Below the pieces are notes generated by a model. That model made no database searches. It was given only the letters and a program-made list of their open reading frames with translations, and was not told the DNA's origin. The position numbers were made by a program, and so were the translations under genes. Of a stretch of DNA of 35,614 nt, positions 16,998 to 35,606 are shown piece by piece (within the stretch, counting starts at the first letter, position 1; each line of letters opens with the position of its first letter). This DNA is from Brevinematales bacterium (lineage in GTDB: Bacteria; Spirochaetota; Brevinematia; Brevinematales; Thermospiraceae): the NCBI GenBank assembly GCA_013177995.1, contig JABLXN010000018.1, positions 1 through 35,614 of the forward strand. Reading direction: 5' to 3'.

Positions 16998-17729
16998 TTA
17001 TCTATTTGTCCACAAACCTACATCCTCCAGGACTTCCTGGACCCGAATAAGCCTTGGTACATTGGTTATCTCTTCATATCTCAACCTTACCACATGCCAT
17101 TCATATCCATAGATCATTTCTGGATTTACAATGGCATAAGAAACACGTGACCTGCTTGTCCAATTTTTCACATAATAGTAATTTGAAATGTTGTTACTTA
17201 CAGGATAAACCTCAATCAATCCCTGTTCAGGAACAACCGGCCATGGTATATTTGTCACCTCATGTCCAGGTGGAAATGGTAAATTCGTGACAGGCGACTT
17301 TCCTCCCTCGGGGATAATTGAAACTACCCCACCAAGGGTTACTGTGATATAATAATTATATCCTGCCCGGAAAGTGAATATAGCCGAAGAAGTATTCGTC
17401 AGGCCACGACCATCAATCTCTGTAACAGAAAAGAAATAAGTTCCCGTTGAAGGAATATTCATGACAATTGTTTCTCCACTTTTAGCCTCCCATGACACTC
17501 CTTCGGACCACCCACTTTCATTAGACAGACAAAAATAGGCAGCAACAATCGGTGAGACATCCACCGATATAATAGCAGGAGAAATACCTGAGAAAGAAGC
17601 AGAATCTTTCACAGAAATATACAGATAGCCCTTCTGGCTCTCCGAGACAAAAATATTTTTGTCTGCTGAACATCCACCAAACAACACCGCCAAGAACACC
17701 AACACCAACATCAACACACCACGTTTCAT
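16998..17729 (-). CDS. Lipoprotein, first gene of the export block
   Basis: The protein has 243 residues. The ATG at 17729 has AGGAGG eight bases upstream; a TTG two codons earlier is too close to that site. The signal peptide ends in lipobox LFGGC (Cys20). The mature part is beta-rich and Ser/Thr-rich, with a repeated alternating pattern like a carbohydrate-binding or fibronectin-like fold (about 35-140: GETIVMNIPSTGTYFFSVTEID, then TFRAGYNYYITVTL). A proline-rich linker (about 145-175) leads to a C-terminal part of unknown fold. It is the promoter-proximal gene, separated from the next by a hairpin, so it may be made in excess over the exporter. Function unknown. Confidence 0.75.
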   Translation of the reverse strand: MKRGVLMLVLVFLAVLFGGCSADKNIFVSESQKGYLYISVKDSASFSGISPAIISVDVSPIVAAYFCLSNESGWSEGVSWEAKSGETIVMNIPSTGTYFFSVTEIDGRGLTNTSSAIFTFRAGYNYYITVTLGGVVSIIPEGGKSPVTNLPFPPGHEVTNIPWPVVPEQGLIEVYPVSNNISNYYYVKNWTSRSRVSYAIVNPEMIYGYEWHVVRLRYEEITNVPRLIRVQEVLEDVGLWTNR

Positions 17730-17792
17730 TTTCAATTCCTCCTATGCTTAAAATTAGGATTCTCAATACCACTCACTTCTAAAATTTTTACT

Positions 17793-17837
17793 ATTATAGG
17801 GAAAAAACTATTTTTTGTCAATGGGCATTTGTCACAA
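17793..17837 (-). promoter_or_regulatory. Main promoter of the export block with upstream shared box
   Basis: On the minus strand TTGACA (17816-17821), 17 bases and TATAAT (17793-17798) give a perfect vegetative consensus, about 55-60 bases upstream of the first lipoprotein's start. The -35 box and the 16 bases upstream of it (together 17816-17837) are identical to 102-123. Two TGACA half-sites in direct orientation lie within it, one being part of the -35, as expected for a regulator or activator site. Confidence 0.8.
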
Positions 17838-17919
17838 TTTTGGGGGAAAGTTTTTCTCTTCTCCTCCACATACTAAAAATAAGAAAAACGTATCGGAGGA
17901 AAACACCACCGCCCCTTGA

Positions 17920-18371
17920 GCTATGGCGATGTTTCAGCAAGAAAGGGGCTTTCTGAGACCGCAGGACACCGTAGCTATGACCTTGTTTCAGCTAAACACC
18001 CCATGGGTTAAACGTTTAACCTCTTTTCTACCAACACCCCATGGCCATTGCTATTACTCTGTTTCAGCAAATACACCACCTGGTTAAACGTTTAACCTAT
18101 GTCTACACAAATCCCCTCCCCCTCTGGCTATTCCCCTGTCTCAGCTAACCACCTCATTGGTTAAACGTTTAACCTTTCTCTATAACCCCCCATGGCCATT
18201 GCTATCACCATGTCTCAGCAAAAGGCCCCTTAGTTAAACGTTTAACCAACCTCCATACAAACTCAAGTGGTGGCTATCACCTTGTTTCAGCTAAACAACC
18301 CAGAGGTTGAACGTTTAACCTCACTCTATACACCCCACACGCCTTTGGCTATTCCCATGTTTCAGCAAAAC
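17920..18371 (+). repeat. Tandem array of about 75-bp units (bipartite 20-mer + palindrome)
   Basis: Copies of the bipartite motif GGCTAT-nnCnn-TGTTTCAGC, with GCTAT beginning at 17920, 17974, 18050, 18127, 18201, 18273 and 18348, all point the same way. The last five intervals are 76, 77, 74, 72 and 75 bases. Between successive copies stands a 16-bp palindrome GGTTAAACGTTTAACC at 18006, 18082, 18159, 18232 (one mismatch) and 18305 (one mismatch). The spacer sequences between these two landmarks differ but share CCCCATGG-like and TCTATA-like pieces. No coding potential is apparent. The landmarks are much better conserved than the rest, which suggests protein-binding sites. Confidence 0.9.
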
Positions 18372-18649
18372 CCCCGCGGCTTCGCTTCGGTGGGCTTTTG
18401 GGCAAAAGCAACACAAGAGGTCGCCCCGGGCACCTCCTGCACCCTCACTCCGGAAGGACTTCCCCATTGGTAGTACAAAGATCCATCTTCAAAACCGCAA
18501 AAGCGGCCCGGTGGGTACTGAGCGAAGTCGAAGTGGGGTACAGAAAAAAAAGGGTGATAAAAGCACAGGGCCTTCTGTCACCAGGTCCGCAGGGCTTTCC
18601 CTCCCGCCGGGGCTTCTCTGAGGCCACACCGCAGGCAGGGACGGGGAAG
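18372..18649. other. GC-rich non-coding spacer inside the repeat region
   Basis: About 280 bases between the two repeat clusters, visibly richer in G+C. It holds a small hairpin GCTTTT-GGGC-AAAAGC (18394-18409), another CCGC-AAAA-GCGG (18495-18506), and CTGAGCGAAGTCGAAG (18518-18533) flanked by near-identical GTGGGTAC / GTGGGGTAC. Open frames across it look like chance products of the repeats and have no good start signals. I see no gene. Confidence 0.6.
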
Positions 18650-18836
18650 GGTATGGCGATGTTTCAGCAAAAAGGGCGTGTTTTGAGACCACAGGACCCC
18701 GGGGCTATGACCTTGTTTCAGCTAAACAATCCATGGGTTGAACGTTTAACCTGTGTCTCTAAAAACTCCCCATGTTTCCGGCTATAACCCTATCTCAGCA
18801 AAATCAGGCCCACGAAGCTGAAACATGGTAATAGCC
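18650..18836 (+). repeat. Second repeat cluster: copy of array start plus inverted pair
   Basis: Bases 18650-18752 repeat 17920-18022 at the same internal spacing (two 20-mers 54 bases apart, then the 16-bp palindrome at 18736-18751), an imperfect direct repeat of about 103 bases set 730 bases apart. It is followed by a 20-mer at 18780-18799 and an inverted one at 18817-18836, which together form a stem of about 20 bases with an 17-base loop, like the dispersed hairpins elsewhere in the window. Confidence 0.85.
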
Positions 18837-18895
18837 CCTACCTCCCTCCAGCACAGGTCGGAAGATATTCTCTTGTTCCGCCCAAAGACCCTTTA

Positions 18896-18914
18896 GCTGA
18901 AACAAAGTCATAGT
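18896..18914 (-). repeat. Single inverted 20-mer arm, degenerate at one end
   Basis: GCTGAAACAAAGTCATAG is the reverse complement of the bipartite 20-mer, with the final GCC altered. It lies alone between the last hairpin and the groEL terminator. Confidence 0.75.
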
Positions 18915-18931
18915 CCTCCCTCTCAAACAAA

Positions 18932-18959
18932 AAAAGCGCCCGGACAACCGGGCGCTTTT
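18932..18959 (-). terminator. Intrinsic terminator of groEL
   Basis: A perfect 12-bp stem (AAAAGCGCCCGG and its complement) with loop ACAA is followed on the minus strand by a run of T. It lies about 10 bases beyond the groEL stop. The flanking A and T runs make it usable in both directions. Confidence 0.93.
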
Positions 18960-18967
18960 GCTTTGTC

Positions 18968-20590
18968 TTAGTACATATCTCCCATACCAGGGTTAGGAGC
19001 AGCAACTTTTTCCTTCTCAGGCTTGTCTGTAATCATCACCTCAGTGGTGAGAAGGAGCCCAGCAATAGAAGCTGCATTCTGAAGGGCTGTTCTCTCCACC
19101 TTGACAGGGTCAATAATACCAGCCTTCATCATATCCACCCATTCATTGGTGAGGGCATTGTACCCCATACCACTCTTGGATTCCTTCGCGCGGTGAACAA
19201 TCACAGAACCATCAATACCGGAGTTATCCGCAATCTTGCGCATAGGAGCCTCAAGAGCCCGGCGTACAATCTCAATACCAACCTGCTCTTCCTCATTCTC
19301 TCCCTTCAGACCATCAAGAGCCTTCTGAGCAAGAATCAGAGAGAGACCACCACCAGGAACAATCCCTTCTTCCACAGCGGCTTTGGTAGCGGAGAGAGCA
19401 TCCTCAACACGAGCCTTCTTCTCCTTGAGTTCAACCTCTGTAGCGGCACCCACACGGATCACAGCCACACCACCGGCAAGTTTAGCCAGTCTCTCCTGGA
19501 GTTTTTCGCGATCGTAGTCAGAAGTAGTATCCTCAATCTGTTTCTTGATCTGTTTGATACGAGCCTCAATAGCCTCTTTCTTGCCAGCCCCACTCACAAT
19601 AGTGGTGTTTTCCTTGTCCACCTTGACCTTCTTCGCACGACCAAGATCAGCAAGGGTAGCATTTTCAAGCTTCATACCCTTCTCTTCAGAGATCACCTGA
19701 CCACCGGTGAGAATAGCAATATCCTCAAGCATAGCCTTTCGACGGTCACCAAAGGCAGGAGCCTTCACTGCCACACAGTTCAATGTACCACGGAGCTTGT
19801 TCACAATGAGGGTAGCCAGAGCCTCTCCCTCCACATCCTCAGCCACAATGAGAAGAGGACGACCAGACTGAGCAATCTTTTCCAGAAGAGGCACAATCTC
19901 CTTGATAGAAGAGATCTTCTTGTCATAGAGAAGAATGAAAGGATCATCGAGTTCAGCGACCATGGTTTCAGCATTGGTCACCATGTAGGGAGAGAGATAC
20001 CCACGGTCAAACTGCATACCCTCCACCACATCCACATAGGTCTCAAGAGACTTGGACTCTTCCACGGTAATCACTCCATCCTTGCCCACTTTGTCCATAG
20101 CCTCAGCGATAAACTCACCAATGGTCATATCATTGTTAGCAGAAATAGCAGCCACATCACGGATCTCTTCACGGGTTTCCACCTTCTTGGCGAGTTTCTT
20201 CAGTTCAGCCACGACAGCATCCACCGCTTTGTCAATCCCTTTCTTGATGAGGGTAGGGTTGCTTCCAGCGGTGACGTTCTTGAAACCCTCACGGATAATC
20301 GCATGAGCAAGCACCGTAGCCGTTGTGGTACCATCACCAGCAATGTCATTGGTTTTGGTAGCCACTTCCTTCACCAACTGAGCACCCATATTCTCAAACT
20401 TGTCCTCGAGTTCGATTTCCTTGGCCACGGTCACACCATCCTTGGTGATCGTGGGTGCTCCAAACTTCTTATCAATCACCACGTTGCGACCACGAGGACC
20501 AAGTGTAGCCCCAACAGCACGGGCCAGTTTTTCCACACCAGCCAAAATCTTCTGGTGTGCCTCACTCGAAAACAGTAAGTCTTTCGCCAT
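18968..20590 (-). CDS. groL: Chaperonin GroEL (60 kDa, Hsp60)
   Basis: The protein has 540 residues from the ATG at 20590, the usual MAKD start with GGAGTG upstream; an in-frame extension to 20710 is upstream DNA. It forms the double-ring ATP-dependent folding chamber in the cytosol. Landmarks include [18 protein letters not shown] near residues 29-46, the ATP-binding [11 protein letters not shown] at about 85-95, and the conserved SANND and GGG regions. The C-terminus ends NPGMGDMY instead of the common Gly-Gly-Met repeats. No groES lies beside it, and no CIRCE inverted repeat is seen upstream. Codon use is strongly biased, as expected for a highly expressed gene. It is a single-gene transcript between its promoter and a strong terminator. 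Confidence 0.99.
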
Positions 20591-20623
20591 AGTATCACTC
20601 CTTTTTCTTGAATTTTTGCATAA

Positions 20624-20653
20624 AATATACATATTCCTCCTGAGAATCGTCAA
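20624..20653 (-). promoter_or_regulatory. Promoter of groEL
   Basis: On the minus strand TTGACG (20648-20653), an 18-base spacer and TATATT (20624-20629) precede the groEL start by about 35 bases. No HrcA/CIRCE element is present, so any heat control would have to act in another way. Confidence 0.6.
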
Positions 20654-20725
20654 GTCTAAAAAGACATTCAAGCCTCGGGCTAAAACAGCCGATACCATAA
20701 AAAGAATCATCAGAAGGAGTCATCG

Positions 20726-26840: not shown

Positions 26841-26895
26841 GGCTATGACTTTGTTTCAGCAAAAGCCCCTCTGTAGCTGAAACAAGGGAATAGCC
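26841..26895. repeat. Dispersed inverted pair of the bipartite 20-mer
   Basis: The left arm (26841-26860) GGCTATGACTTTGTTTCAGC and the right arm (26876-26895) GCTGAAACAAGGGAATAGCC can pair over 20 positions with mismatches only at the variable places; the loop is 15 bases. It lies between the copA terminator and the STAS promoter. Confidence 0.9.
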
Positions 26896-29410: not shown

Positions 29411-29466
29411 GGCTATTTCCTTGTTTCAGCAAAAACCTCCTCACAAGCTGAAACATCGTCATAGCC
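29411..29466. repeat. Dispersed inverted pair of the bipartite 20-mer
   Basis: The left arm (29411-29430) GGCTATTTCCTTGTTTCAGC and the right arm (29447-29466) GCTGAAACATCGTCATAGCC form a 20-bp imperfect stem with a 16-base loop. It occupies the middle of the 328-base gap between the divergent copA and plsC promoters; apart from these promoters I see nothing else in that gap. Confidence 0.9.
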
Positions 29467-35486: not shown

Positions 35487-35541
35487 GGCTATTTCCTTAT
35501 TTCAGCTAAAAGCCCCCTTTTGCTGAAACATGGGAATAGCC
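35487..35541. repeat. Dispersed inverted pair of the bipartite 20-mer
   Basis: The left arm (35487-35506) GGCTATTTCCTTATTTCAGC and the right arm (35522-35541) GCTGAAACATGGGAATAGCC have a 15-base loop. It lies just past the rpsI terminator. Confidence 0.9.
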
Positions 35542-35586
35542 AAAGTGCAAACTCGGTGCGTGTCCAGAGAAAAAGCGGTAGGTTTT

Positions 35587-35606
35587 GCTGAAACAAAGTC
35601 ATAGCC
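35587..35606 (-). repeat. Single inverted 20-mer at the right edge
   Basis: GCTGAAACAAAGTCATAGCC is a perfect right-arm copy. Its neighbours may continue beyond the window, so it could belong to another array like that at 17920-18836. Confidence 0.85.

Follow-up and report, generated by a model that had tools for sequence, protein, structure and literature searches.

The intergenic region between a lipoprotein-like gene and a chaperonin gene of a Brevinematales bacterium carries a dense array of short repeats, which raises the question of what kind of element this is and which proteins might recognise it. The window, i.e. the whole stretch of 35,614 nucleotides that was analysed (contig JABLXN010000018.1), belongs to a genome of 2.38 Mb in 57 contigs (G000), about a quarter to a third of which was read as stretches; gene calls were ORF-based. 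The main repeat is a 20-mer, B (GGCTATnnCnnTGTTTCAGC), present in the window in 19 copies with up to 3 mismatches versus 0.15 expected from dinucleotide shuffles. The array itself (17919-18915) contains ten copies on the plus strand (17919-18799) and two on the minus strand (18817 and 18896), as the first-pass annotation had it, although a second component that alternates with B had been missed there. This is a palindrome of 16 bp, P (GGTTAAACGTTTAACC or one change from it), six copies of which occur in the array with a period of about 75 bp. The start-to-start layout, with direct and inverted B shown as > and <, is > 54 > 33 P 43 > 33 P 44 > 33 P 41 > 32 P 40 > 33 P 42 >, X (277 bp), > 54 > 33 P 44 > 37 < 79 <. 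Thus, P starts 32-33 bp after the start of B, and successive P are 73-77 bp apart inside the first array. The layout of the second unit (> 54 > 33 P 44 > 37 <) recurs in the genome (e.g. L228, L229 and L231). The segment X recurs beside B arrays elsewhere in G000, at many loci, is G+C-rich and possibly forms a hairpin; no convincing match to it was found in the stretches of the sister species (G002). The coordinates of all features are given in Table 1.

Table 1. Repeats, genes and regulatory sites of the window
Feature	Position	Strand
First B/P array, seven B (17919, 17973, 18049, 18126, 18200, 18272, 18347) with five P between	17919..18366	+
P palindrome GGTTAAACGTTTAACC, probable LacI-family operator	18006..18021	.
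P palindrome, exact	18082..18097	.
P palindrome, exact	18159..18174	.
P palindrome AGTTAAACGTTTAACC	18232..18247	.
P palindrome GGTTGAACGTTTAACC	18305..18320	.
X, dispersed repeat segment separating two B/P units	18372..18648	+
Second unit: B 18649, B 18703, P 18736, B 18780, inverted B 18817	18649..18836	+
P palindrome GGTTGAACGTTTAACC	18736..18751	.
Inverted B, exact	18817..18836	-
Inverted B, one mismatch	18896..18915	-
Solo inverted B pair (> 15 bp <)	26841..26895	.
Solo inverted B pair (> 16 bp <)	29411..29466	.
Solo right-end unit of gene-bearing element (> 65 > 35 <)	35487..35606	-
Lipoprotein-like gene, downstream of the 17793-17821 promoter, no Pfam match	16998..17735	-
Consensus sigma-70 promoter of the lipoprotein-like gene, TTGACA-17-TATAAT, 12/12	17821-17793	-
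Terminator hairpin after the chaperonin gene, usable on both strands	18932..18959	.
Chaperonin gene (Cpn60/GroEL-type)	18968..20710	-

The array does not lie between two terminated transcription units, as had been supposed. Both neighbouring genes are on the minus strand, so that the right end of the array faces the chaperonin terminator and the left end is on a promoter side, 98 bp from the promoter at 17793-17821 and upstream of it. The nearest named record of the chaperonin is that of Spirochaetes bacterium GWF1_51_8 (75% identity). A 27-mer (TTGTCAATGGGCATTTGTCACAATTTT, minus strand, region 17815-17841) includes the -35 box of the array-side promoter and is identical beside two B arrays of G002 (L122:2238-2264 and L126:2074-2100), where the neighbouring genes look unrelated; it is possibly the site of another regulator. 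An Rfam scan of 17600-19000 gave seven matches, all of them under the gathering scores.

Genome-wide, B occurs in 351 copies with up to 2 mismatches (182 plus 169), versus 0 and 1 for the reversed control. In an unbiased sample of 400 kb the central C was invariant (46 of 46 copies), and the four bases around it vary, as the first-pass annotation had it, but not freely, position 8 being mostly A and position 11 never G. The copies are strongly biased towards intergenic DNA: 49 of 53 (up to 1 mismatch) lie outside ORFs of at least 180 aa, which span 84% of the unbiased sample, and the remaining four are inside two ORFs overlapping repeated DNA. B recurs in three settings: in inverted pairs that stand alone (> 14-18 bp <), in B/P arrays and in units that surround a gene. 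The array studied here is one of dozens of such clusters dispersed over the genome. Outside the array, the window contains inverted pairs at 26841/26876, 29411/29447 and 35487/35522; the last belongs to a unit (35487-35606) that is almost the same as the right-end sequence next to an IS1595-type gene in L164, i.e. it shares its ends with a gene-bearing element, as MITEs do.

High copy number, extragenic location and inverted doublets are features of REPIN and BIME elements, and one explanation is that B is a REP-like sequence moved by a RAYT (Y1 transposase). Hundreds of extragenic, species-specific inverted pairs, their higher-order clusters and the presence of a partner gene are in line with this (compare PMC3116915), but PF01797 (Y1 transposase) has no match in the genome, while the control genomes do match, and the partner gene is multicopy and derived from IS1595. 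The inverted pairs also lack covariation at their inner positions: 74 of 136 variable-position pairs were formed versus 77.8 in shuffles, so the test for hairpin selection was negative, although the outer blocks could still pair. Mobilisation by a RAYT is, hence, highly improbable. Since the inner positions do not covary, each 20-mer is probably read singly, as duplex DNA. The exact inverted-pair pattern was searched for in named genomes and was found in none.

The conservation of the repeats was assessed by aligning the array region to 27 other stretches, which gave 126 alignments of at least 90 bp picked by overall similarity. The fixed positions of B were 91% identical and P 93%, versus 64% for the inner positions of B, 79% for X and 61%, 65% and 70% for the B-P, P-B and B1-B2 spacers, respectively; BLAST seeding somewhat favours conserved stretches, but the contrast within copies is nonetheless large. 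The view of B as a two-block, protein-target-like site and not a repeat decaying at random is borne out by these values. The sister species has its own version of B (GCTATTACCnTGTTGCAGT-like), in hundreds of copies that are mostly direct at about 36 bp. In the third genome of the genus (G001), B is scarce and never accompanied by P, though the IS1595-derived gene is present; because its contigs break near repeats, this B count is a lower bound. No B above chance was found in genomes outside the genus, and viral contigs gave seven single matches and no arrays. To the letter, the conservation does disappear in relatives, an outcome that the first-pass annotation had named as a refutation, but the way in which it does so, with a separate version of B in the sister species, is informative. 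Another sequence, GCTCTCGATTTGTTTCACC, has many exact recurrences across the G002 chromosome (C1, e.g. 18302, 37334, 168946 and 171474) and seems to belong to an unrelated insertion sequence.

A gene accompanies the repeats. The arrays of G002 repeatedly contain an ORF of some 265 codons with the IS1595 zinc ribbon, in 13 intact copies (92-100% identity) and fragments; G000 has three full and three partial copies, of which at least two run to contig ends, and G001 has two copies. All intact copies of G002 (13/13) and G000 (3/3) have the layout <B gene B> with B pointing outward, as is expected of terminal inverted repeats; the left B of one G002 copy (L176) is damaged. The distances between B and the gene are nearly fixed: in nearly all G002 copies the left B is at -147 to -149 and the right B at about +168 to +185, and in G000 the left B is at -118. 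Endpoints of homology fall within 1 bp of the GG edge of B in 417 of 1272 cases, part of which is expected for inverted pairs; this resembles ends of the Merlin/IS1595 type, a conserved terminal 5'-GG being known for Merlin, the eukaryotic relatives (PMC8101967). It is this position of B at the gene ends that suggests its binding by the encoded protein. These data also bear on the reading of B as the site of a host nucleoid or chromosome-organising protein, into whose arrays the gene would merely have inserted. The intergenic location of hundreds of copies and the near-regular spacing of the G002 arrays might be explained in this way, but the gene-side B are fixed in orientation and nearly so in distance, B is absent beyond the genus, and B and the gene differ together between species, which makes this reading quite improbable.

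The zinc ribbon (PF12760) was recognised with E values of 2.5e-11 to 5e-16 (7.9e-10 in one copy), and is the N-terminal feature of the IS1595 family. The IS1595 profiles match the protein at its two ends only. For all copies of the genus, only positions about 112-153 of the DDE_Tnp_IS1595 profile, its last 40, match, nearly all below the cut-off, so that the DDE domain was not recovered; NF033547 scored 34-63 bits versus a cut-off of 75, and a profile-profile alignment with canonical IS1595 relatives covers residues 5-116 only. The canonical motifs DET..GGK, TD...GY and NGIE.FW were sought in the protein and not found, its core being shortened. The first catalytic aspartate may be represented by IECD/VEID, but in two of the copies associated with arrays this candidate position is N or T. 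An HIH (HUH-like) motif was weighed as another possible catalytic site and set aside, as nothing past the letters themselves supports it. AlphaFold predicted the zinc ribbon and the HTH confidently, and residues 128-228 with scores below 50; as the C-terminal half is poorly predicted, the loss of the catalytic fold is an argument from sequence. The protein is under purifying selection: dN/dS is 0.11 over the 13 G002 copies, none of which has stops, and 0.14-0.16 for the G000 copies.

The three genomes of the genus yielded no canonical IS1595 relative, and no viral relative of the protein was found; the plasmid relatives among the matches listed were ordinary IS1595 transposases with less than 30% identity. 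G001 encodes a second, divergent IS1595-derived gene with no B nearby (C29, L170:4109-4909), the probable counterpart of which in G000 (C39:9963-10199) looks truncated; it could be a retained single-copy relative. An order-level relative (G007 C63, L185) seems to be without the DDE motifs and has the C-terminal GCR signature; no array was seen around its gene.

The repeats might simply be the remains of an ordinary IS1595-type insertion sequence and its MITEs, with a divergent active transposase and with P having hitch-hiked on one ancestral copy without any role in the array. The protein's zinc ribbon and its C-terminal signature, the GG of B facing outward at the gene ends and the many gene copies of G002 favour this, and purifying selection is expected of active transposases as well. 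In the IS1595 family, however, 8-bp duplications are usual (PMC8101967); at 54 clusters of the form >...< no 8-bp target-site duplication with at least 7 of 8 matching positions was detected, 0.36 being expected by chance. Along with this, the canonical DDE motifs are missing from a shortened core, P is conserved as strongly as B whereas the flanking spacers decayed, and the geometry of P differs between two species. We therefore consider this explanation unlikely, though less so than the other alternatives. The earlier thought that B could be the terminus of a known MITE or IS is, hence, partly upheld: B has an outward edge and brackets an IS1595-derived gene, but the catalytic motifs are unrecognised and target-site duplications lacking.

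The palindrome leads to a different protein. Exact P is found 38 times in G000, 27 times in G002, 4 times in G001 and in none of 38 other relatives, and its core is the same across species, whereas B diverged. All three species of the genus have a pair of P about 1.12 kb apart, without B, and between them a gene of a LacI-family regulator (PF00356, PF13377), single in each of the genomes and without a counterpart in ten further genomes of the order at an E value of 1e-60. Across species the regulator shows 74% and 55% identity, its DNA-binding domain being almost unchanged, and its nearest solved structures are CcpA (3oqm, 8.7e-45), LacI and PurR. The second P of the pair is located between the regulator gene and a GH31 glucosidase gene in 3/3 species. 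P also occurs at a GH13 amylase gene, in G000 with B 140-210 bp off and in G001 free of B, and in G002 it precedes the phosphoglycerate mutase gene, lying upstream; all four sites of G001 are B-free. Because P flanks the regulator in three species and lies at the GH31 and GH13 genes, it is probably the operator of this regulator, and its retention at the regulator's own gene across species is as expected of LacI-family operators.

Most P of G000 are, at the same time, tied to the repeats: 33 of 37 exact copies have a B within 60 bp, an offset of +31 bp centre to centre, or about three helical turns, accounts for 25 of the offsets, and P-P spacing in the arrays is 73-78 bp. Among the 20 exact P examined in G002, 14 adjoin B, at -34 and -56, between two GG ends, and P beside B is found there also on both flanks of the IS1595-derived gene. 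The unlike geometry of B and P in the two species suggests a separate capture or the reshuffling of an older unit, and the spacing in G000 may be inherited and not selected. Since the gene-bearing elements of G000 are without P, the family does not need it. The half-site of P (GTTTAACC) and the right block of B (GTTTCAGC) match at 6 of 8 positions, so that P could be derived from a pair of B blocks that face each other.

P contains GTTRRRY and RYYYAAC, which resemble core-site heptamers, and together with the tandem periodicity of 75 bp this may recall an attC array like those of integrons, or other sites of tyrosine recombinases. There are, however, no cassettes, the profile TIGR02249 gives only partial, Xer-type matches below the cut-off (two Xer-type genes), and the LacI-family regulator already explains P; this is the least probable of all the explanations considered. 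The proposal that B is the site of a host recombinase is not supported either, the integrase profile matching only ordinary genes of XerC/XerD type. B adjoins both Xer genes, but a link to them was rejected as these genes sit in ordinary contexts.

Taken together, we favour, with a probability of roughly 0.6, the reading that the array belongs to a mosaic repeat family particular to the genus, in which an IS1595-derived protein recognises B and P is an acquired operator of a host LacI-type regulator. The array would be a non-autonomous member of this family, and the protein encoded by gene-bearing members would recognise B at terminal and subterminal positions. Most likely this protein would bind B, including the inverted pairs 14-18 bp apart, by its zinc-ribbon/HTH half. 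P would be the operator of a regulator that controls alpha-glucan metabolism and, probably, central carbon metabolism, picked up by the repeats; if the regulator binds P also inside the arrays, two proteins would occupy neighbouring DNA. As the repeats carry P, extra operators would be scattered between genes, where they may titrate the repressor, enable P-P DNA looping or bring nearby promoters (e.g. 17793-17821) under the influence of the regulator. A selfish-looking repeat appears in this way to spread a control switch of the host's sugar metabolism. The repeats could have been spread by trans-mobilisation by the protein, by a lost active ancestor or by recombination between B copies. A point against this reading is that the protein, so far as its motifs can be recognised, does not look like a catalyst that could have multiplied the repeats.

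A bolder version, which we put forward tentatively and with less than even confidence, is that a catalytically silent IS1595-derived binder partners REPIN-like repeats, and that the repeats of two species separately took up the same carbon-regulator operator, spreading a host regulon with the two proteins side by side. If true, bacterial repeats would disperse binding sites of a host transcription factor, here at dozens of sites in three comparable genomes, that of the sister species being in one contig, and the REPIN-RAYT arrangement would have arisen independently from a DDE-type family. The literature searched on operators carried by bacterial repeats contained nothing close.

Several known systems share parts of this organisation. 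LacI-family (CcpA/LacI/PurR-like) regulons also have a palindromic operator with a central CG, located at the regulator's gene and at glycosidase genes; unlike in these regulons, most operators of G000 are inside dispersed repeats and are not single promoter sites. IS1595 insertion sequences and their MITEs, as well as Merlin, have in common with the family the zinc ribbon, the C-terminal signature, outward GG ends and a gene between inverted copies of the ends. They differ in that here the DDE motifs are unrecognisable in a protein of about 260 residues, 8-bp duplications were not seen and the ends are arrays of a 20-mer. The REPIN-RAYT and BIME systems of Pseudomonas and E. coli are similar in having hundreds of short extragenic repeats, inverted pairs with short spacers, mosaic clusters, species-specific versions and a transposase-derived partner gene. 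The partner here is, however, IS1595-derived and multicopy in place of a Y1 (HUH) enzyme, hairpin covariation is absent and LacI-type operators are embedded. The array is, thus, best read as belonging to a BIME/REPIN-like mosaic repeat family, in which an IS1595-derived partner would take the place of RAYT and host operators would have been acquired.
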